In this document: positions 45,221 through 64,000 of the stretch, one piece after another
How the letters are laid out: every line of letters starts with the position of its first letter
How positions within the stretch are numbered: position 1 is the stretch's first letter
Assembly: GCA_004123355.1 (NCBI GenBank)
Contig: SCHM01000002.1
Span: forward strand, 8,715,569-8,779,568
Reading direction: 5' to 3'
DNA: 64,000 bases
From: Amphirosellinia nigrospora
Taxonomy: Eukaryota; Ascomycota; Sordariomycetes; Xylariales; Xylariaceae
The notes under the pieces: model-generated
What the model was told of the DNA's origin: nothing
Seen by the model: the letters and a program-made list of their open reading frames with translations, nothing else
The model's database searches: none
Translations under genes and position numbers: made by a program

Positions 45221-46570
<1,350 letters not shown>

Positions 46571-49120: not shown

Positions 49121-50585
49121 ATGTCCGCTGCCGCCCCCCACTGAGACACCGTTACCACGTCCACCGCCGGGGCCGTCGTACGTGACGTTGTACCAGTTGA
49201 GCTGGCATTCAGGTTTTTTGTCGCGAGTGTTGTCATAGCCTTTCTCGTGTTAATTACCCTTGTGTTGCGTGTACTTTCGCGTTTTTACATTGCATTAAAA
49301 CTCGGCTGGGACGATGTGCTCGTTTTCATTGCTTCCATTTTCGCCTTTGGCCAGACGGTTCTGTTTGCACTCTGTGCGTACTACCACTCCTTCGCTTTGG
49401 CTAAGGCGTCATGAAATTTCATTCTAACCCAATATCTAAAGTGGTATTTGGCGGTTTAGGTCATCACGCCGACACCGTACCCGCACCTAATCAGTTTTCA
49501 ATACCAAAGGTAATAACTCACCCCTCTGCCCGATGGCAAACTGCATTCGTTGACACTTACTGCATCGCTAGGTTCTCTTTAGCTTCGAGCTGTTTCACAT
49601 CATCAGCCTAAACCTTGGCAAATTGAGCGCACTCTTTTTCTATTTGAAACTATTCAACAACAAATCCGTTGCCCGCATCACGAAATGGTGCATACTCGCC
49701 GTGTCTCTTGGCACGACCGGCTTGATTCTATGGCAATTTCTTTTCTGCCACCCACTCTACAAAATGTGGGAATGGGATGGACTTGAGAATTGTGGTGATC
49801 GTGTACGTGGACGTCTCCATTACTATTCAATCATCTACGAATCTGGGTCTATTCAACTATATTCGTGTTTCAGCCCATGCTAACACCTACTTTGTAGAAA
49901 CCTCTATATGTCACTGTGTGCGTTTGGTCCATCTTCACCGATCTGCTGGTGTTGGTGGTACCCCTACCCATCATTTGGAAACTGAAAATGGAACGAACTC
50001 AAAAGATGAGGCTCTCCTGGCTGTTTGCAGCAGGTCTGAGGTAAATTCATGCCATGAGTATACTCCATTACTATATACCTGAATCACTAACGCGCTCTGT
50101 GAACGATAGTGTTACCACAACATCCATCGTTCGTTTGGCCTACATAGTCACCATCAATTACCACCACGACTTCTCATTCCACAGCGTCCCCTCTACCTTC
50201 TTGGCATTGATAGAGCCACCCGAAACGATATTCTGTGTCTGCCTTCCGATGCTATACTCATTTTTCGCTCGAGTATGGCCTAGTAAAATAGCCGCAATGC
50301 CTCTACCCGCACGTTGCTACCCATTCACGCACCTACGGCTCAAGCTTTGCACGCCGTGTTGATACGCAAAAACGCAACTTTACGCCGCTTGAAACGACCC
50401 TTCCAGACCCGTTCGAACTAAACGAGATGCATGGCTCCCAGCGGCAGGTGATGTATCGACAGATAGAAAACATTAGGGCAAACCGGGCGTTAGGTTCGAG
50501 GACGAAAAGCATAGATCGGGATGCCGAGTCGAGCAGCGGGTCGGATGCCGCATTAGTTAGAGACCATGACAAATGGCAATCATGA
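49121..50585 (+). CDS. SAT4/rhodopsin-like integral membrane protein
   Basis: A fungal seven-helix membrane family of unknown substrate (rhodopsin/SAT4 type, PTH11-like in layout), plasma membrane by inference. Proposed exons: 49121-49373, 49442-49509, 49572-49802, 49898-50040 and 50110-50585, all with good donors and acceptors. Family marks: VLRVLSRF...LGWDD after the first helix, ELFHIISLNLGKLSALFFYL, WQFLFCHPLYKMW, then TDLLVLVVPLPIIWKLKM, and IEPPETIFCVCLP in the last helix. The C-terminal tail is polar and Ser/Arg-rich. The frame with ATG at 49121 hits a TGA at 49142 beside a C run, and the tail near 50330 also needs a frame change, so there are probably two frame breaks. Helices and splice sites are otherwise well kept. 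It may be a recently lost gene or may carry sequence errors. Confidence 0.7.
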
Positions 50586-52027: not shown

Positions 52028-53185
52028 ATGGCTGCTCCAACCAAGGTGCCGATACCAGCTCTGCTGGACTTGACAATCGACAACATAACACCGAACACGG
52101 TCAAGATTAACTCGCAGAGCGGTGACCGGCGGTTGACGTATTTGATGGAACGCTTGGTCACACATCTTACACACTTCACGACTTTGCTAGAGAAACCCGC
52201 ATCAGCACCGAGGAATGGATGGCAGGGCTCAACTTCCTGGTGCAGTGTGGTCAGATCAGTAGCGACGTTCGCCACGTGAGTCTAGTACAATACACTCTTA
52301 GTTGTCACGAGATGGTCAAGATATGCACGATGGACACCGACTGATGCGGTCGCCCAACCAGGAATTTATTCTACTATCCGACGTCCTAGGTCTTTCTCTC
52401 CTCGTCGATGGCATCAACCATCCGAAACCACCCGACACGACCGAAGGTTCAGTTTTGGGGCCATTCCACACGCACGATGCACCAGTACTTGGCCATGGCG
52501 CCAATATGTCCTCGGATCCTAAGGGGAACCGCTACTATGCATATGCACGGTAAAGGATACAAGCGGGAAGCCGGTTGAGGGCGCCAAGATCGATATATGG
52601 GAGACCGATAGCACAGGACATTATGATGTTCAGCACTCGGATCGAAACGAACCCACTGAGCGATGCGTCATGGCGAGCGACGCGAACGGAGACTTTTGGT
52701 TCCAGTGTATCTTGCCTGTCAGCTATCCCATTCCGCATGACGGGCCGGTTGGAAAGCTTCTGGGAAAATTGAACAGGCACCCCTGGCGGCCGGCGCATTT
52801 GCACTTTATGTTCGAGAAGGAGGGTTGGGATCATTTGATCACGTGAGTTCTCCGCCTGGTTGTTGTAGGTTTCGGTCTATTATGGCGCGTTTACGCTGAT
52901 GTTGACGGAAACAGGTCGTTGTATATGCGCGGTGATCCCTACGAGACATCAGATGCCGTTTTTGGGGTCAAGAAGAGTTTAATCGTAGAGCCGCAGCGAA
53001 TAGACGGCGCCACGGCCAAGCAATATGGGGTCTCGGAGGGCAGCTGGGTCCTAAAGCATAACTTTGTATTGACGACTGAAAAGGAGACGGCGGATCTGAG
53101 GGATCAGCTTGCTCTTGAATCTCTTGAAAAACAGGGACTGAACCTTAGGCTCGTCGACCATCTACCGGTCCCAGACCTGGACTGA
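52028..53185 (+). CDS. Intradiol ring-cleavage dioxygenase (catechol or hydroxyquinol type), frame-broken
   Basis: Non-haem Fe(III) enzyme that opens catechol-type rings in aromatic degradation, cytosolic. Introns at 52276-52361 and 52843-52914. N-terminal dimerisation domain: ETRISTEEWMAGLNFL and EFILLSDVLGLSLLVD; then the signature EGSVLGPFH, KIDIWETDSTGHYDVQ (first Fe-binding Tyr), PVSYPIPHDGPVG (second Tyr) and RPAHLHF (the two His). All four iron ligands are present. The C-terminus RGDPYETSDAVFGVKKSL fits the fungal family. Two frame breaks interrupt an otherwise excellent match: a short insertion near 52160-52170 before HDFARETR, and a missing base in the G run near 52525. A 1,2-dioxygenase acting on hydroxyquinol or catechol is likely; the exact substrate cannot be told. 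Confidence 0.85.
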
Positions 53186-53711: not shown

Positions 53712-54874
53712 TCAAAAGTCTTGCACTACAATACTCGGAGTTAGTTACCGCTATGTCAAGCACGATTTCTGCGATGAGGGTTTAAAACTCATAGACATTA
53801 TCTTGGGCCAGAAGGGAAAACCTGTGATCCAGAAGTTACTTCAACAAGATGAAAATGGCTCTCCGAAAATCACTTACCGCCTGTCTCACCAGTTAGAGGC
53901 CTCTCGACGTCCATTTTCTTCCCTCCCCGCTCTGGACCTGTTTCCTCGTCCTCATCTTCGCTCTCCCCGATCCAGCCAGGCTCCTCGTTGTCAAACCAGG
54001 CCTCTTCCTGCTCTCGTCGTTCAAGCGTATCATACTCGTCGTCTTCGTCAACAATGCGATAGTTGAAGTCATCGTCTCTGCCAGCTACTACAATACTCGG
54101 AGTCAGTATCGCCATTTGAAGTTGATTTGCGAGGGGTTTAGAAGCTTCTAGACACTCTCTTGTCCCAAAGGAGGAAAGTCGATGCTCCGAAAGCTGCCAA
54201 AACAAGTAGAAAATGGTTCCGAGAATCGCTCACTGAATCGAAGCCGTAGGAATTCGTCCCAGTGCGCGCGGCCCTCTTCGGCGGTTTGTGGAGCAAACCG
54301 CATCCCGAGATCGTGTGCCTCCAACGCTTCTAGCTCTTCCCAGCTCATCTCCGTGTCCGGTGCCGAGTGTGGCCCCGGGCACCCGTCGGTGCCAGATGAT
54401 GACGGCCTTGGACAGGATGGATGTGAGATAGGGCTGTTCGTAGACCCGGCCCTCCCTGCGAAGCTATTCTCCTCTAAGCTCCCGCGTCTACTACGGTCGG
54501 CTCCACGCGACGCGTCGTCAGCCAATTTCGAGAGCCGCGCTTCTCCCTGAGGAGATCGACTTCGAGAACACGTCCGAAGCCTTTGGTGCGACCCTCCCTC
54601 TCGCGCTCCTCGGAGATTGAAAGCGCCTGATAACAGCATCATAGAGAAATAGGGTCTGCTAGCTCATGTTCCAATGAGCCAAAGTACGAGGGTGGCGAGA
54701 TAGCCACTCCCGCCGGCGATTGCGCACCCGAATCTGAGCTGCATGTGCCGGGGTCTTAGGCGGTCGTGGTTGAGGTCTCTCGTAAGGAGATGAGGGTAAT
54801 GATGTCGGGGGCGACACGGATGCGCCATCAGGTTGTGGGTGTGACAACTCGAGTGAGCCCAGAAGAGGTGCCAT
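53712..54874 (-). CDS. CCDC97-like protein (DUF2052), with two introner-like introns
   Basis: Homologue of the coiled-coil domain protein CCDC97, associated with the spliceosome in animals; nuclear by inference. It begins MAPLLGSLEL at 54874, followed by a Pro-rich stretch and RRREWLSRHP, then YFGSLEHELADP and YDAVIRRFQSP, a Ser/Pro-rich linker, MSWEELEALEAHDLGMRF and WDEFLRLRF. After intron 1 (54088-54233) comes AGRDDDFNYRIVDEDDEYD and EEAWFDNEEPGW, the diagnostic acidic block. Intron 2 (53726-53877) leads to a four-residue last exon ending VQDF. Both introns give in-frame joins. Upstream of about 54540 the conserved pieces lie in different frames, each offset by what looks like one missing base (near 54690, 54645, 54610 and 54555). 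This is unexpected for a conserved single-copy gene, so sequence error is a real alternative to decay. Confidence 0.75.
53726..53877 (-). repeat. Introner-like intron, copy 1 (CCDC97-like intron 2)
   Basis: 152 bp, donor GTAAGTGATTTTCGG, branch site CTAAC, end AACTCCGAGTATTGTAG. It shares the donor-side GATTYTCGG block and the whole 3' end with copy 2. The middle is more diverged. Confidence 0.8.
54088..54233 (-). repeat. Introner-like intron, copy 2 (CCDC97-like intron 1)
   Basis: 146 bp, donor GTGAGC, core ACTTGTTTTGGCAGCTTTCG, end ACTGACTCCGAGTATTGTAG. By eye it differs from the hydrolase copy at 60901-61047 at about 18 of 147 aligned positions. It splits a codon after its first base and restores the frame between RLRF and AGRDDDF. 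Confidence 0.9.
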
Positions 54875-55412
54875 GATGTCTGGGGTCTGGGAGACAAATA
54901 GATAGATGTTCACTAGGTAGTCTTTTCTTTTTCTTATTGAGTCTGAATATAGAAAGGGATCAGCCAACGCATTCTATAATCAAAAATCAAAAATGCCGAA
55001 AGGTATATATTGTAGGTAGGCACCTATACAGTAGCTTCTGTAGGTGTACCTACCTAGGTACCCACTTAAGGTATATGTACTTAGGTACTTCAATGTTAAG
55101 TAAGGCAAGAAAGCAGAATAAAGAAGGCATAGTAATTGCCTTCAGTACCTTGTTTAAGTTGAAATTTCCAATAAACTATTGTAGAAAGGCTTTCTTTCCT
55201 TCTTCTAGAAGCCATACCTGCCAAATGTTTTGCACCATTCTACGTACCTTGGAACCACCCAACTGCTAATGGCCTGTGTTGGGAGGGAGCTCTCTACAAC
55301 AGCCTTGTAACATCAATATCAGACCTGCATACCTCTTTGAATAGTTCAAGGCTGTTGCTACTTCTTTCTCTTATGGTTCCCTCATATCACAAGCTCTGCC
55401 CGTCAACGCATC
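54875..55412. promoter_or_regulatory. Divergent promoter region with TACCTA/TAGGTA repeats
   Basis: Lies between the CCDC97-like gene (minus) and the DUF2293 gene (plus). At 55012-55092 the words TAGGTA and TACCTA recur many times and form the palindromes TACCTAGGTA and GGTACC-like cores. The array could be a shared regulatory site or a small intergenic repeat. No TATA box is obvious. Confidence 0.45.
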
Positions 55413-56607
55413 ATGAAGGGCAAGTCTGCTTCACGACGCGCCTTGACAAGGTCACAAGGCGAATCCAAAATCAAAACACAACGTAGAAATCCAACTATCT
55501 TGCCAATCCTTCCTCGGAGTCGAAAAGGCAAATATACCACTAAAGAGAGCAGGACAAAGTCTAGAACTGGGCGGGTTGTGAAAAAGATACCGCAAGCTAC
55601 CCCAGCCACAGCCTCTCGACACTGCATGACACTCCGAAGCAAGAGTACACATATATCAACAAACACCCAAGACGCCATAGCTCTTGACAGCGCACTGACG
55701 ACAGTGCCCCGACTTGCAGAAATATCCAGCCAGCCTGCCCTCTCGACAACAGAACCTGTTGTTCGCGCTTCATCAATGATGCCTGAAGGCTACAGATTCG
55801 TTTCGAAAGGCGACCCTTATGTGACTCGGAACTGTCGAGACCGGACTCGGCGAGCCCGACAAGTTGTCTACGCTGTTACCGACGACAAGAAGAAACCGGT
55901 TGGCATTCGAGTGCCTACGCTTATCTACGCCGCAGTCGTAGAATCAGCCGTTGCTACATCGGATCGCCGACGACTGATAGTCAAAAAACAAGACGAGGAC
56001 TTGGAGAGGCGCTTTAGAGAAGCAAGTAAGTGCTACATATAGCTAGATACTCCGCCGTTATGCACATTCCAGAGATTTCTGTCGGCTTCGCGTCCATACT
56101 TTGTCGAGGACTGTCCGGAACTCCCATGCACCTCCAGTCTCTCACGTCCGGTCTTGGGTTTAGCGGCGAAGGCTAATCGTTGTAGTTCTAGCACGGTTCC
56201 CGCGCATACCACCCGAGGAGCTTCGCGTGATTATTCGTCATGCCACAGTCAAAAGAGGGGGTCGTGTCGGTCGTACTGGAAGAATAGAAATGCCAGAAAA
56301 GGCGTTTCTGGCCGTCCAAGCCCACATCCGGCATAACAAAACAGACTATGAGAACTTGCTAAGGGGAGGAACTAAGCGCGAAGCCGCAAGAAGCCTCACG
56401 GCCCATGTTGTCTTTGGCATACTTGACGAATGGGGACCGGTGACTACAAGACGCGTAGTTGAAACGGAAAGAAAGTCGACTTCTAGGAAATTTACCCAGA
56501 GAACAAGGGGTAGCACCACGCTCCTGAAGTCCACAGGAAGGATCACCAAACGGTCTAAACGAGCAAGGCTCGTAGATTGGACTGCAGTGACCTCGATGAA
56601 ACCATGA
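55413..56607 (+). CDS. DUF2293-domain protein
   Basis: A fungal family of unknown function. Exon 1 is 55413-56025 and exon 2 is 56186-56607; the intron has donor GTAAGT, branch GCTAAT and acceptor TGTAG, and the joined coding length (1035 nt, 344 codons plus stop) stays in frame. The N-terminal 125 residues are basic and Ser/Thr/Arg-rich, likely unstructured and perhaps nuclear. Next comes MPEGYRFVSKGDPYVTRNCR and a GIRVPTLIYAAVVE stretch. The DUF2293 core follows after the splice: ARFPRIPPEEL, IIRHATVKRGGRVGR, AHIRHNKTDYENLLRGG and FGILDEWGP. The tail is again Arg/Lys-rich. This gene looks intact, in contrast to several neighbours. It is divergent from the CCDC97-like gene. Confidence 0.8.
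56026..56185 (+). other. Ordinary intron of the DUF2293 gene
   Basis: 160 bp, similar in size to the introner-like introns, but without their core or 3' end apart from a general ...TTGTAG. An earlier acceptor at 56161 would leave the conserved frame; the acceptor at 56185 keeps it. Confidence 0.65.
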
Positions 56608-58227
56608 TTGTGAGCCTAGGTAATGCAGCCAAGGGCCAGGATGACTTCTCTGCCCACTCCGGCTTCTGCCAACGCTGCTATGATAAGCTGGGAGCTGAAA
56701 TTTTTGGAAGCCGAAAACGTCCCAAGCAGGGATAAGCTTGGAGACGTCTAAAGACCCAAGTCGCAGCGCCCGGCCGCTCTTATCCAACCCATCATATTGT
56801 CTCTTAACTCAGTCTGACTGACCCTGTATCAAAATATGCCCCCCCGAACCCCCAACATACGCACAACCAGAATCAACAACCAAGCCGTAAGATTAATGAC
56901 AAACTCGCTCACAGGCAGAGATTTTCTAGGCTTGGCTACATGCCGTCCGCCTGTTCGCCTGGGAGGAAAATTCGGTGCTATGTAACCAATTCACGGTGAA
57001 AATACTTCTGACATAATGCACGTGCTGCATTAGCATCCGCAGCGGCAAGGCCTTACACAGCACAAGATTAAACGATTTGTTTATCAACAAAAGTTTGTCT
57101 ACCAGTCCTCATTCCAGTCAGGATCATGCAGCGATGTTGTGACGGAGGGAGGACCTCAGACACGTTGCGGAGGAAGAATATGGCCCCGGAGTTCACATGT
57201 ATGTTGTAGCACAACCTGTATTTCCTGATCTGTTTATAGGGATCAAACTACATGATCTCCTTTCGAACAGTGTTATGGGATGTCAATCTCAATTGAACAG
57301 CTTGGCGGATCGCGTCAAGGCTATTGATTAAGTATGCGGAGGCACAGCACTAGGTGTGCTAGAATAGAGACGTCCTGCTATGGTAGCCTAGAGAGAGGCT
57401 GTATTGTTTACTCAGATTTTGCGGGTTCAACCACATAGCGAAAAAGGATCCTGTCATCCCGCATTCGTCAGGTGATAATAACAATGATCAATCCTGAAGA
57501 TAATCCCCACCTCTCTCGAGAAGAAAGAGCCGAACGCCGACAATATGAGTCTAACCATGCTGATGATACCGTGAATGATACCAGCTCTATAAGACAATGA
57601 CTCAATAGTTAACAAGATCGGGTGTGGTTTTCAATGGGCTCAGATCCTGCCCCGGGATTACCACTCCTTTCAACGCCGTGGAACTCCCCGGCCCCGGACT
57701 GACAGCCGGACAATTCGGATGTCAGCTTTCATACTTGATCAAGAACCCGATATCACCCGTCCAAATTGCGATCTGACTAGGTCGCGTCGCTTGTTTGATC
57801 GCTCACGGGTTTTTCCCGTAGTTGTGTGGTGCCTCGATCCGATTTTCCCGCTAACATAAGCCGTATTTTGGGCGCTTATTCCACTTAGTGCTCATATGCA
57901 GGGAAACCCTCATTTGACTCGCGCGCATTATGCATCCCCTTTGACCGTAACGCCGACTTGTACTAGAACTTCCCTTGCTTTAGTCATAGACTATGCTGCA
58001 GATCATAGTATGCGATCGGTTGGTTTCCTCGTGACCACAAGGCCATACACATCATACTCGTTTATTGGAGATGATATTGCGGGCTCACGACGGTGTACAA
58101 AAGAAAGGGAGACCCCCACAGCTATAGGTTTTTGTTCTTTTCCTAACAGAGCATAACCAACACCAAAAATCTCCACAGTGACTACGAAACCCAAGATAGT
58201 ACCAAGTATTCGATTACCATTCTCAAT
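56608..58227. other. Intergenic, no recognised gene
   Basis: A 38-codon frame starting near 57487 (MINPEDNPHLSREERAE) has a coding-like composition and may be the stub of a lost gene. The 86-codon frame at 57896-58156 is unrecognised. Nothing else can be supported. Confidence 0.45.
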
Positions 58228-59064
58228 ATGACTGTCCTCGAGATCGCCCTACCAAACGTCAAGCCAGATCCGGCCCTCATCGAAGAGGCTCTGAAAACGC
58301 TGACGCCGCCATTCGTAAGGAACTTGAATGGAGCGGGTGTCCTGAATGGACTGCGCGGCGCCTTCGCGACGGAGAATGGTCGAGACATTAGCAATGAGTT
58401 CAGAGAGATTCTGCTCTTGGGTGCGCCCCCCCCTCTTCTGTGCCCGTCTCATTCCGCTCTCAGTTCAATCACTCACAGACTACAGAATGGCCCACCATCC
58501 AACACTTCAAGGATTTTGTCGTCTCCCCGGCTATCTCGAGTTCGCGGGCCAGATGAAGGAAAAATACGCCGCCGGGCCGCCGGAGCTGAAGATCTTCGAG
58601 ACCGGCGGCGATGTATCCTCGCTATTCGGGCCCGAACCGGTCCTCGAGTACCTCGTCGTCAAGGTCAAGGACGCCTCGGAGGCAGGGGTGCAGAGCGCGT
58701 TGCAGAAGCTGGAGTCCGGGCTCTCCCAGCTCGGTAGCTCCAGGGCAGCCGTCAGGAAAAGCTCGAACCTCGCCACGCAGGAGATCGCAGTCGTGAGCCT
58801 GTACGGAAGCGATGCCGTAAGTACCCGAGTTGTCCATGTATAGATCTGCCTATATGGCCGCACCGCATCCTTCATACGGCCGTATGGTAGCAGAGAGGCG
58901 TTCTCGGTTACTCGGCATAGGCATTCACTAACTTGGAGACGCAGGAACTCGAAAATGCCAAGGCATCGACGGCTCGGCAGCAACTCCTAGCTGAGATTGC
59001 TAAGATAGCCGACGTAACGAGCCTGGTTGCACATGTCAAGAAAGTACTCCCTCTCGCCGACTAG
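58228..59064 (+). CDS. Probable dimeric alpha/beta-barrel (ABM-like) protein
   Basis: Small protein of about 230 residues with no signal peptide or membrane segment. Exon 1 (58228 to about 58419) begins MTVLEIALPNVKPDPALIEE. A short intron of about 60 bp follows, then EWPTIQHFKDFVVSP, GYLEFAGQM and FGPEPVLEYLVVKVKDAS, an intron at 58817-58944 (donor GTAAGT, branch CTAAC, acceptor GCAG), and a last exon ending VKKVLPLAD. The pattern of a beta strand, a W-x-S/T-x-E/Q-x-F helix start and a second strand recalls antibiotic-biosynthesis-monooxygenase-like folds, but no catalytic residue identifies a reaction. The second part is read in a different frame after VVSP at a CCCC run near 58528, so one base may be missing. 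The assignment is by structural pattern only. Confidence 0.45.
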
Positions 59065-59651
59065 TAGCTGGTTCTGCAACAGGAGTAACATGTCCCCTAT
59101 GTAAAAAACCAAACAGATCTCGATGGGTTCGCCTCTCCGCTCAAGCTTTCATATACTAGGCATGTCTTGTATGTAATATACATCACTCGAAGAATTGAAT
59201 ACAATATCGTCTATACAGACTAAATGTGGACTTGAGAAGAACTATGATGCTAAGAATGGAGATTATTGTTTTATGACTTGTATGTGAAACGTGGGATCAC
59301 AACAGATTACGTCGCGATAGAAGCCTGCCTGTGCTCCCCAAAGTCCATGAGTGACATTGATTGTTGATGACGAATCAATGGGGCCATGTCTCCGCACGCA
59401 CGCCCTTCCACCTCGGCTATGACATTGATCTGCACCTGCATCGCGAGTCCTCATCCTCAATTAAGTCCAAATATAAATAGACACCTGGAATATACAGTAG
59501 CACTAAGCGAGGGTCAGGTGTTAGCTATTCATTCTTACATACGAAGACAAATTATCTCTTAGCCTGCAACAGTGTAGTGCTGAGCAGTCCGATTTTCCAT
59601 TCTCTAATCTCCTAGCAAGCTCATATTCGGGCTGAGCGGCAGTGCTTTGCC
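59065..59651. other. Intergenic, probable promoter of the hydrolase gene
   Basis: No gene. Short AT-rich stretches around 59460-59500 (AAATATAAATAG) could serve as a TATA-like element for the downstream gene; this is a guess from position. Confidence 0.4.
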
Positions 59652-61144
59652 ATGGCCCAATCTCAACCACCAGAACAGCTGAGGGGATTCGAAGGTCTGC
59701 ACCCCGGGACATACACTACACCTGGTGACAGTGTCCTCTCCTACTCGCACACGCCAGCGTCGCGACACAAGCAAGGAACCCCAATCGTGGTTTTACTTCA
59801 CGGCTGGCCGCAAACAAGATATATCTGGCGGTATGCTGTGCCGGTACTCCTGGAGAGGGGCTGCACGCTTTTTGTGCCGGACCTGCCTGGCTATGGATAT
59901 AGCACCATGTCGAAGGTTCCGGCATCAGACGTAGGCGCCAAATCCGAGCATGACCGAGTCAGGTAAGTCGCTGGCGTGTCTTGTTCCCCTCTTGACCTGT
60001 CGCCGAGACATGAATTGCCTTAACAGGCATATTCTGCTCTCGTAACCCCTGGAAACTCACAAAATCCCGAGAAATCCTTACTATAAGTAGAAATCTTTAT
60101 TGACTTTGCAGCGTTGGATACGGAATTCTGTCAGCATTACGCGCAGTGTACGGTGGTGGCAACTCCTCTGCGCATGACGGAGATGAACTCAAAGTCGTGC
60201 TGATAGGCCACGACAGAGGAGGCCGCGTGACGCAACGCCTGGTCACATCTTCCTCGGCCTCATCTCTCCCTATCCCACAATCTCTGAACATCCGCATTCT
60301 CGGGGCGATGCTCCTGGATATTGTCCCCTATAGCGCGCAATGGAGTGCACATGCTAATCCGCGAGCCTCGACCAAGTACTGGCACTGGACCTTCCTACCG
60401 TCTACATTTAGCGTACCCATGATCACCTCGGTGAGTAATACTTTGCTCTATTTTCTTCTTGATTTGGCACCTTTTTAGAGCACGTGATATCTATCTTGGG
60501 ATAGGAGAATGACTAGACTTCCAAAACTCTCGCAAATCACATTCTACATGGCGATCACTGACTTGGGCTGTTGCTAGTATGGCGGTGGCCGGTTCTGTCG
60601 TGAGATCCTAGCCTCGGTTGTAGGGAGTAATGAGGCCGGACGCGAGAGCTTATACGCGGACGGCGCCGTCGAGCATTATGCAAGCCTTTACGAGCGAGAG
60701 GAGGTGATCCGCGGCGCCGCGGCGGATTACAGCTCTGGTGCGGCGGAAGACTGGGATGCTCAGCAAGAGGACATTGCACAGGGACGGAAGATACAGGTCC
60801 CTGTTGTTGTCCTCTACTGCGAGGGTTTGGGTAAGATGCATGGTGACGTCGAGGCGATCTGGAAACAGTGGACGAGCCCCGATGTTAAGCTTCGTGTCCA
60901 GTAAGCAATTCTTGGAACCATTTCCTACTTGTTTTGGCAGCTTTCGGAGCATGAGGTTTCCTCTTTTGGGCCAAGAGAGTTCCAAGAAGCTTCTAAAACC
61001 CTCACAAATCAACTCCAAATGACGATAACTGACTCCGAGTATTGTAGTGCCATGCAAAGCGGCGTGGGTCATTATATGCCAGAGGAAGCGCCAGACGCGA
61101 CTAACAAGCACATTGCGGACTTTTTGGAAGAACTTGGGCTCTAG
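59652..61144 (+). CDS. Alpha/beta hydrolase, haloacetate dehalogenase/epoxide hydrolase type
   Basis: Exons 59652-59962, 60112-60430, 60578-60900 and 61048-61144 join to 1050 nt (349 residues) with every splice in frame. Motifs: HGWPQTRYIW (oxyanion loop), the nucleophile elbow GHDRGGRV with the catalytic Asp near 60206, LDIVPYS, KYWHWTFL (in fluoroacetate dehalogenases a His-Trp pair at this place binds the halide), an acid-bearing VVVLYCEG...GDVEAIWKQW region, and the catalytic His in GVGHYMPEEAPD near the end. It has no signal peptide, so is likely cytosolic. Known members cleave carbon-halogen bonds or epoxides; the natural substrate here is unknown. Introns 2 and 3 belong to the introner-like family; intron 1 is of the same length class but not clearly related. 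The gene looks intact. Confidence 0.88.
59963..60111 (+). other. Hydrolase intron 1 (149 bp)
   Basis: Donor GTAAGTCGC, acceptor ACTTTGCAG. Its length falls in the 146-152 bp class. One stretch (GGAAACTCACAAAATC) resembles AAAACCCTCACAAATC of the introner-like copies, but most of it does not align. It may be an old, diverged member or unrelated. Confidence 0.5.
60431..60577 (+). repeat. Introner-like intron, copy 3 (hydrolase intron 2, diverged)
   Basis: 147 bp, donor GTGAGTAATA, end GGGCTGTTGCTAG. It aligns with copy 4 through GATTTGGCACCTTT (against GTTTTGGCAGCTTT), a CTTGGGATAGGAGAA block, CCAAAACTCTCGCAAATCA and GGCGATCACTGACT. It is clearly older than copies 2 and 4. It lies between codons (phase 0). 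Confidence 0.75.
60901..61047 (+). repeat. Introner-like intron, copy 4 (hydrolase intron 3)
   Basis: 147 bp, donor GTAAGCAATTCTTGG, core ACTTGTTTTGGCAGCTTTCG, branch ACTGAC, end ACTGACTCCGAGTATTGTAG. It is nearly the same as the CCDC97-like intron at 54088-54233, although the host genes are unrelated and on opposite strands. It splits a codon after the second base and joins KLRV to GVGHYMPEEAP in frame. Confidence 0.9.
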
Positions 61145-61515: not shown

Positions 61516-62464
61516 TCAATGGCTCTCTAGACGCATAGTGACCTCTTCAACACGAGACGCCCCGCCTAAAAACCGCCTCACCGTCTCGTGATCCTGTCCA
61601 TTGTCCCCTTGTACAACCATTTTAACTACCTCTCCATCGTCGTTCATGACCAGGCGACCAGACCGACCATCACGCCACTGTAGGCTGATTTGTCTTGCTT
61701 CAGCATCCGCGGCACTGATATCGATTATGTCCGTCCCTGACTCGTGGTCCGAGGCCTTCTTAGAGCCCAGACCAGCGACCTTTTTCATATCACCAATGAC
61801 GGCGGCGCGGTTGTGATAGCGGACCAGCTCTCTGCGCAGAGCGCGAGCGAAGCACGACAGATGCTGCTTCTTGGGTTATCCGCGTCGTCATCATCGCCAT
61901 TGGAGGTGGGCAGAGGCAAATGTCTCGCAGCGAGGGCCGACAGTGGTATACACTGGGGCACGGTATGGCGATGGACGCGCAGATGGCGGCGGTCGGCGTA
62001 TGGTCGGTTTAGCATGACGTAGTAGGGTCGAGCAAATTTGGTCTTTGACACGATCTCAAAGCGAAGGCCGAGGACGTTCCCGTGGTCGACAGCGTTGGGA
62101 TCGGGGTCATTGACCTTGAATGTGGTGATGGAGGCGCATGCGCGGTACAGACAACGCTGCTTGTGCGCGCCTTGCGCCGCGCATCGCGCGAGGAGCTTCT
62201 GCTTGGTTATATCGCTGGTCTCGGATGATTGTGATTGGAGCATCTGGCGCGTTGCATCGGCCGTCATCAACGTTGCCGTTTGCAGCCTGACGTCGTTCTT
62301 CAATGAGTCGACTGCGTGCTTGTTAGCATCCTCGCCATACGTAAAAGTAAACAAAGCTCGGGAGCAGCGTCGGTTCCCGTACCCTGTGCTCTAAGTTTCG
62401 CAATTTCATCGTGCAATCTGTCTGCCACGGAGAGCTCGGGGGATTGGGACGACCGAGTAGCCAT
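61516..62464 (-). CDS. CENP-O/Mcm21-family kinetochore protein
   Basis: Inner-kinetochore (CCAN/COMA complex) component at centromeres. It starts MATRSSQSPELSVADRL at 62464, with a coiled-coil-like N-terminus (DEIAKLRAQ, then VDSLKNDVRLQTATL). The intron at 62312-62382 has donor GTACGG, branch GCTAAC and acceptor GCAG. The family core follows: VLGLRFEIVS, PYYVMLNRPY and HRHTVPQCIPLSALAARHL, then FARALRRELVRYHNRAAVIGDM and a C-terminal beta-rich part (QWRDGRSGRLVMNDDGEVVK). Between the DDDDADN linker and FARALRREL the frame changes near 61870-61890 without room for an intron, so one base appears missing in a repetitive GAT/GAC stretch. A broken kinetochore gene would be surprising, so a sequence error is likely. 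Divergent from the acetyl-CoA transporter gene. Confidence 0.8.
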
Positions 62465-63404: not shown

Positions 63405-64000
63405 ATGGCCCAAACTCGACGGCCAAAGCCATCCAAAAGAGACAAGCTGTCAGTCTCGACCAGTGGCGCTTCCTTCGGTCAGCCCAACGACGGCATGTCG
63501 AATGTCGAGCTCCGGCGCAAGAATGCCGCCCCCGTCGACTCGGGCCAGGTCACGTCGAACCTGATGGCCCGCGAATCCTTTTCTCTGGACCACGCCGTCC
63601 CCAGGACCCCCGTCGTCAACAACCATGGGTTTTTCGAGCTTCCCCGCGCCGACCAGCGCAATTTTTTACTGCTGGTCCTGTTATACTTCCTCCAGGGTGT
63701 GCCCATGGGCCTGGCCGGCGGCTCTGTGCCCTTTCTCCTCAAGGAACACCTGTCGTTTGGCGAAATAGGCGTCTTCAGCTTGGCTGCCTACCCGTACTCG
63801 TTGAAGCTGTTCTGGAGCCCCATCGTCGACGCCGTGTGGAGCCCGAGGTTTGGCAGGAGAAAGAGCTGGATCCTTCCGATTCAATTGATGTCAGGTTTCG
63901 GCATGTTGTGGTTGGGTTCGAAGATCGATGAGCTGATGGCAACCACCGGGAAACCAGGTGGGCCGAGTGTCTGGAGCTTCACGGGTTGGTGGTTCTTCCT
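63405..64000 (+). CDS. Acetyl-CoA transporter (SLC33A1/AT-1 family), 5' part
   Basis: Multi-helix major-facilitator-type carrier that moves acetyl-CoA into the ER/Golgi lumen in animals; the fungal orthologues are presumed similar. The ATG at 63405 opens a single frame of 198 codons up to the window edge. A polar N-terminus of about 75 residues comes first, then FELPRADQRNFLLLVLLYFL and QGVPMGLAGGSVPFLLKEH (first helix and the family hallmark), GEIGVFSLAAYPYSLKLFWSP and IVDAVWSPRFGRRKSWILPI, which is highly characteristic. No intron or frame break is seen before the window ends; the rest lies beyond 64000. Upstream ATGs in other frames are not compatible with the conserved protein. Confidence 0.9.
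   Translation, partial: MAQTRRPKPSKRDKLSVSTSGASFGQPNDGMSNVELRRKNAAPVDSGQVTSNLMARESFSLDHAVPRTPVVNNHGFFELPRADQRNFLLLVLLYFLQGVPMGLAGGSVPFLLKEHLSFGEIGVFSLAAYPYSLKLFWSPIVDAVWSPRFGRRKSWILPIQLMSGFGMLWLGSKIDELMATTGKPGGPSVWSFTGWWFF

Follow-up and report, generated by a model that had tools for sequence, protein, structure and literature searches.

Introner-like elements are families of similar introns in unrelated genes. In Dothideomycetes (Fulvia fulva, Dothistroma septosporum, Zymoseptoria tritici and relatives), regular introns measure ~50-55 bp and introner-like elements are longer, and families with 98-99% identical copies are taken as likely still multiplying (PMC4457414). A stable whole-intron secondary structure of the fungal elements is attributed to van der Burgt by PMC8469720. 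In Xylariales, PMC8469720 and PMC12403724 report no flank bias at the insertion sites of sister stwintrons, and near-terminal stems go with the most recent stwintron copies (PMC12403724). The proposals made for fungi are reverse splicing of the intron into DNA and capture of intron RNA in double-strand breaks (PMC8469720, PMC12403724). Across a wider range of eukaryotes, target-site duplications were found in 49 of 130 introner families and terminal inverted repeats in 72 of 177, and some introners co-opt a splice site; ascomycete families are stated to have neither terminal inverted repeats nor target-site duplications (PMC9860276). Here we describe an introner-like family of five introns in a 64,000-nucleotide stretch of the genome of Amphirosellinia nigrospora, a member of the Xylariaceae (GCA_004123355.1, contig SCHM01000002.1, positions 8,715,569 to 8,779,568, forward strand). 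This whole stretch is referred to as the window.

The family is supported by five copies in three unrelated genes (Table 1). All of them lie in the sense direction, their predicted introns are homologous over the whole length, no in-register target-site duplication is present, and the two most similar copies reside in different genes. An introner-like family of four introns of 146-152 bp had been proposed in a preliminary description; these four (A to D) were recovered at their places, and copy F is a fifth member beyond them. Copies A to D are homologous along the entire intron, with nhmmer E values of 6e-35 to 3e-45 for a model built from these copies themselves. Copy F, a GT...AG unit with the motif order of A to D, was found after the four-copy model had partly matched the minus strand at 45518-45448 (E 0.00055). 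Over its full length it reaches E 1.4e-20 once it is added to the model, again an in-sample value. Out of sample, F against the other four copies gives a z score of 7.0, and none of 500 shuffles with the splice ends kept reaches its score. The corresponding values for A to D, each against the other four, are z 9.9 to 19.7, and none of 500 end-preserving shuffles is as high. A model-free self-BLAST of positions 39000-64000 lists five pairs at E <=1e-3, every one among A to D and with B-D at 3e-48; F is not reached by this search. In all five copies the homology spans the intron from its GT to its AG, with internal gaps in F. The preliminary description had rested on a shared core and 3´ end. 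Only B and D carry the 20-base core ACTTGTTTTGGCAGCTTTCG and the 3´ end ACTGACTCCGAGTATTGTAG without change; A ends in ACTAACTCCGAGTATTGTAG, and the end of C has diverged.

The distribution of the copies is uniform in orientation. In a profile search of both strands of the 64 kb with filters off, all five matches above the inclusion threshold are sense and genic, as had been stated for the first four, and no intergenic or antisense copy exceeds this threshold within the window. Four further listed matches have E values of 0.17 to 43; the top one is copy D itself, read in antisense. Five sense and genic sites would arise by chance with a probability of ~3e-4, assuming random placement in 39-64 kb and approximate gene spans that cover 40% of this region. 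The 20-base core has no exact match in contigs of prokaryotes and viruses, in line with a fungal intron. An Rfam search of 44-62 kb gave a single match, which lies in a modelled exon and scores 26.2 bits versus a gathering score of 71 bits, and a tRNA scan in the bacterial setting found none. The copies measure 122-152 bp; five other introns in our own gene models measure 65, 72, 128, 149 and 166 bp.

Table 1. Family copies, stem arms, host genes and neighbouring genes predicted in the window.
Feature	Positions	Strand	Description	Evidence
Copy A	53726-53877	-	152 bp intron, phase 1, near 3´ end of CCDC97-like gene	nhmmer E 6e-35 (in-sample)
Copy B	54088-54233	-	146 bp intron, phase 1, CCDC97-like gene	nhmmer E 2.9e-45 (in-sample)
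Copy C	60431-60577	+	147 bp intron, phase 0, dehalogenase-like gene	nhmmer E 5.9e-38 (in-sample)
Copy D	60901-61047	+	147 bp intron, phase 2, dehalogenase-like gene	nhmmer E 5.6e-45 (in-sample)
Copy F	45397-45518	-	122 bp, phase 1, older diverged copy, subtilisin-like (S8) protease gene	
D 5´ arm	60905-60916	+	pairs with 61034-61045	
D 3´ arm	61034-61045	+	after branch-point motif CTGAC (61029-61033), ends on T of acceptor TAG	
B 5´ arm	54218-54229	-		fold and pair count
B 3´ arm	54090-54101	-		fold and pair count
Host gene of C and D	59652-61144	+	alpha/beta hydrolase, fluoroacetate-dehalogenase-like	Pfam PF12697/PF00561; PDB 3r3u E 2.5e-27
Dehalogenase-like exons	59652-59962, 60112-60430, 60578-60900, 61048-61144	+	349 residues and stop	
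Host gene of A and B	53712-54874	-	CCDC97-like, start codon assumed	PF09747 (also with piece joined from two frames)
Host gene of F	45240-46459 (approximate)	-	subtilisin-like S8 protease	PF00082 E 4.5e-07
Rhodopsin-domain gene	49145-50585 (approximate)	+	fungal rhodopsin-domain membrane protein	
Dioxygenase gene	52523-53185 (approximate)	+	intradiol dioxygenase	
DUF2293 gene	55414-56607 (approximate)	+		
CENP-O gene	61785-62390 (approximate)	-		
Transporter gene	~63405-64000 (approximate)	+	acetyl-CoA transporter	

Splicing of the copies is predicted from open reading frames and from protein alignments across the junctions. The dehalogenase-like gene is open across its four exons with C, D and a further intron (E, 59963-60111) removed, and C and D each carry an in-frame stop that would be read if the intron were retained. 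Its spliced product matches the fluoroacetate dehalogenase 3r3u through both the C and the D junction. The spliced product of the protease gene is likewise continuous, with no gap at the F junction in the alignment to the fungal serine protease 3f7o (residues 230-282, E 4.5e-11). In the CCDC97-like gene, the PF09747 match (residues 70-139) crosses the spliced junction B, and the spliced junction A reads GETG|VQDF-stop; a PDB search with the C-terminal piece of this protein gave a single match at E 0.22. The copies occupy three different phases. The earlier statement that all introns restore the frame holds at the junctions and throughout the dehalogenase-like gene, but exon 1 of the CCDC97-like gene is frame-broken as assembled.

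Several apparent single-base frame breaks were observed in this exon (54234-54874, minus strand), all of them outside the introns. Similar apparent breaks occur at ~58520-58545 (plus strand) in a gene at 58.2-59.1 kb. Some of the breaks in these two genes adjoin runs of C or G and suggest that long-read indels were left uncorrected, and not that the genes are dead. The S8 protease gene, which hosts the oldest copy, has an in-frame stop in the assembly besides frame breaks.

In all five copies the donor reads GTRAG, the branch point CTRAY and the acceptor YAG, and the two ends are joined by a conserved short pairing. The 5´ arm of this stem begins at the last base of GTRAG. The 3´ arm extends from behind the branch point to the base that precedes the final AG, so that GTRA and the final AG are left unpaired. 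The stem consists of 11 pairs with an internal mismatch, and the acceptor T takes part in one of these pairs. Of its 55 cells on the alignment, 51 hold standard pairs (11/11 in A, B and D; 9/11 in C and F, in which the stem is not fully complementary). Three pairs have changed on both sides, and 10 of the 11 vary or depart from pairing in some copy. The covariation is 0.50, versus 0.018-0.127 when the stem is shifted by 1 to 3 columns; the stem was taken from copy D and then counted over all five, a procedure that favours it. The stem energies range from -8.0 to -13.6, whereas the 501 GT..AG spans of 110-160 bp in 39-64 kb have a median of -5.4. This set includes the family copies by definition and replaced a smaller control of 41 spans (fraction as stable 0.02-0.22). 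The mean duplex energy of -11.3 is equalled by 6 of 20000 random sets of five such spans, although the five copies are related and the sets are not five independent trials. RNAalifold on the five copies places the terminal stem together with two weak internal helical parts.

These features are best explained, with a probability of about 0.62, by a single family of introner-like elements spreading by way of an RNA copy. A U2-type spliceosomal intron would have multiplied into exons of unrelated genes, each copy representing a putative gain. Each copy brings its own donor, branch point and acceptor and would be removed cleanly, so its insertion would be nearly neutral. The excised intron RNA, its ends perhaps held together by the near-terminal stem, would be inserted in sense into a transcribed exon, either by spliceosomal reverse splicing into DNA or by capture in a break, and would then be copied into DNA. 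The sense-only genic sites, the carried splice sites, the missing target-site duplication and the stem linking donor to acceptor speak for an RNA intermediate. Reverse splicing or break capture may have operated.

A number of observations weigh against the spread of such an RNA copy or against its supposed features. The shuffle control for the stem is modest: 6 of 500 shuffles reach its covariation, 8 its percentage paired, 17 its further pair types and 58 its both-side changes. For A, C, D and F, the stem energy of the individual copy is unexceptional (0.07-0.23 of the spans are as stable; 0.024 for B). RNAalifold on A to D alone returns a different weak structure that lacks the stem. The whole-intron fold of the five copies is no more stable than that of mononucleotide shuffles (z -1.5 to +1.4). 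Symmetry over the full length is weak (z 0.1 to 2.9), and no copy but D exceeded its 300 shuffles. A whole-intron hairpin is not supported by the shuffle z scores and RNAalifold. Out of register, words of 3-5 bases are common to the 20-base surroundings of both junctions. The alignment to 3r3u contains a 2-residue gap near the C junction and gaps near D, and insertion at these two sites may not be exactly seamless. Finally, the copies are old, since even the best pair is 88.4% identical.

The insertion sites share a sequence feature. The motif C-N|T-R is present at all five (CGTG, CATA, CGTA, CATG and CTTA), and 2 of 10 flanking positions are uniform; two or more uniform positions occur in 0.08% of 50000 random five-site sets from the approximate exons of these genes, for a motif that was spotted before it was tested and a sample of five. 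At their junctions, A and C have an in-register direct repeat of 1 base, and B, D and F have none. A further reading, which is tentative and which we consider rather improbable, combines this motif with the stem: an RNA-borne introner of ordinary, non-nested introns, in which the stem, kept by compensatory changes in older and younger copies alike, would be the mobility feature and the target would be chosen (C-N|T-R) rather than random. If true, this would extend the stem of Xylariales to canonical introners, and it would contradict both the lack of inverted repeats in ascomycete introners and the reports of no flank bias.

The uniform flank could also be the target of a transposase or endonuclease, and the element could have moved as DNA, as a small non-autonomous transposon with near-terminal inverted repeats that is spliced out by chance. 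Such repeats are indeed present, and beyond the ascomycetes one or more signs of DNA transposition are found in most introner families (PMC9860276). However, the repeats begin inside the donor and not at the ends of the element, whose GTRA and final AG stay unpaired, and an in-register target duplication is lacking at all five sites. The element also carries both splice sites instead of co-opting one, and all five copies are sense and genic. Movement as DNA is an unlikely source of this family.

The divergence among the copies bears on a second alternative, in which rare separate events, such as ectopic gene conversion or segmental recombination between introns, would have produced the similarity without a multiplying element. 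Across the ten pairs of the five-copy alignment, identity ranges from 50.8% to 88.4% and the Kimura two-parameter (K2P) distance from 0.13 to 0.95. The closest pair is B and D, which lie in different genes on opposite strands and are identical at 129 of 146 positions (K2P 0.128); the 17 differences, 11 of them transitions, and one gap agree well with the ~18 of 147 previously counted by eye. Pairs within a gene are less alike: A and B are 72.0% identical in this alignment and C and D 66.9% (109/144 and 105/144, respectively, when aligned separately). Similarity therefore does not track genes, and local tandem duplication is rejected. According to the self-BLAST, the similarity of A to D is confined to the introns, except for the 11-12 bases in front of B and D and, at other ends, a few bases. 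The exons upstream of B (54234-54244, minus strand) and D (60889-60900, plus strand) share GCTTCG and end in TCA and CCA. This extension of the B-D similarity into the upstream exon may reflect chance, target preference or conversion. Gene conversion could account for it, and only five copies are known. Five copies in three genes, with graded divergence and three phases, speak against such events, which we regard as slightly less probable than movement as DNA. The same figures bear on the claim of the preliminary description that this genome is actively gaining introns. The best of the ten pairs, at 88.4%, falls short of the 98-99% yardstick, and an active family is therefore unsupported, although this estimate comes from five copies in one window, may miss the best pair of the genome and may include assembly errors, and inactivity is equally unestablished.

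Donor-disrupted [D1,2] stwintrons that proliferate as in Xylariales, or canonical introns derived from them by cropping, are a very improbable source. A similar near-terminal stem and seamless insertion are described for them (PMC12403724, PMC8469720), but a [D1,2] stwintron starts with GGU, a G precedes only A and C among the five copies, and the lengths of 122-152 bp found here are not the ~184-207 of stwintrons. An ordinary dispersed repeat inserted in pre-existing introns, the least probable of the alternatives, is largely refuted by the end-to-end GT-AG homology of five copies and by the lack of any above-threshold copy outside genes in the window. Spread of an introner-like element through RNA copies accounts for these observations best.

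Three other introns were compared with the family. Intron E (plus strand) in the dehalogenase-like gene, at 149 bp similar in length to the family, is at most a doubtful member, possibly a degenerate copy. Its pairwise z scores versus mononucleotide shuffles are 2.5-3.5; the family model scores it at -1.5 bits (E 36), with 3 of 300 shuffles higher, and with the splice ends kept the z score is 2.3, with 9 of 500 shuffles as high. The intron at 58817-58944 was rejected (z -0.1 to 1.3, with the ends a few bases off, and z 0.0 in the end-preserving test), as was that at 56026-56191 (z 1.4).

Positions 1-40000 of the window are very AT-rich, with a GC content of 8-32% in 4 kb steps. TpA/ApT is high (1.17-1.52) and (CpA+TpG)/(ApC+GpT) is low (0.16-0.76) in this part, a signature of strong repeat-induced point mutation that is absent from positions 40001-64000. 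The repeats thought to trigger this process are longer than ~150 bp. Introners of ~150 bp may escape it through their small size, and may be among the few elements able to multiply in such a genome.

The origin of new introns has long been debated, and it can be watched in few systems, fungal introners among them. The present family offers a compact test set: its five copies differ in age, its stem lends itself to tests of a part in mobility, and its sites show a possible target motif. Compared by description with the introner-like elements of Dothideomycetes (PMC4457414), it likewise consists of similar canonical introns in unrelated genes, cleanly inserted, sometimes two per gene, with copies that degenerate with age. 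It differs in its best identity (88% versus 98-99% in families taken as active), in the lack of a stable whole-intron fold and in its sites, which are C-N|T-R rather than following the AG/GY preference that PMC8469720 attributes to van der Burgt. The sister stwintrons and cropped sister introns of Hypoxylaceae and Xylariaceae (PMC8469720, PMC12403724) share with the window copies a stem arm beside the donor, an arm between the branch point and the acceptor, unpaired terminal Gs and the absence of a target-site duplication. In contrast, the window copies are not nested introns and have no inverted repeats of 45-55 nt, and their stem sequence differs from the GUAUAAAAAC with GUUUUUAUGU or GUUUUUAUAC of sister stwintrons. 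The stem resembles NTIRE-10 of the Xylariales stwintrons; stems of that type have complementary arms of 9-10 nt close to the two termini, the 3´ one lying between the branch point and the acceptor. As in the introners of algae and other eukaryotes (PMC9860276), families of introns in unrelated genes are similar to near both splice sites; unlike those that co-opt a splice site, the element described here carries both. The short stem is a partial exception to the statement that ascomycete families lack terminal inverted repeats, as it is in Xylariales. Introner-like elements were already known from other fungi, and this locus adds a short stem that joins the intron ends and a possible target motif.

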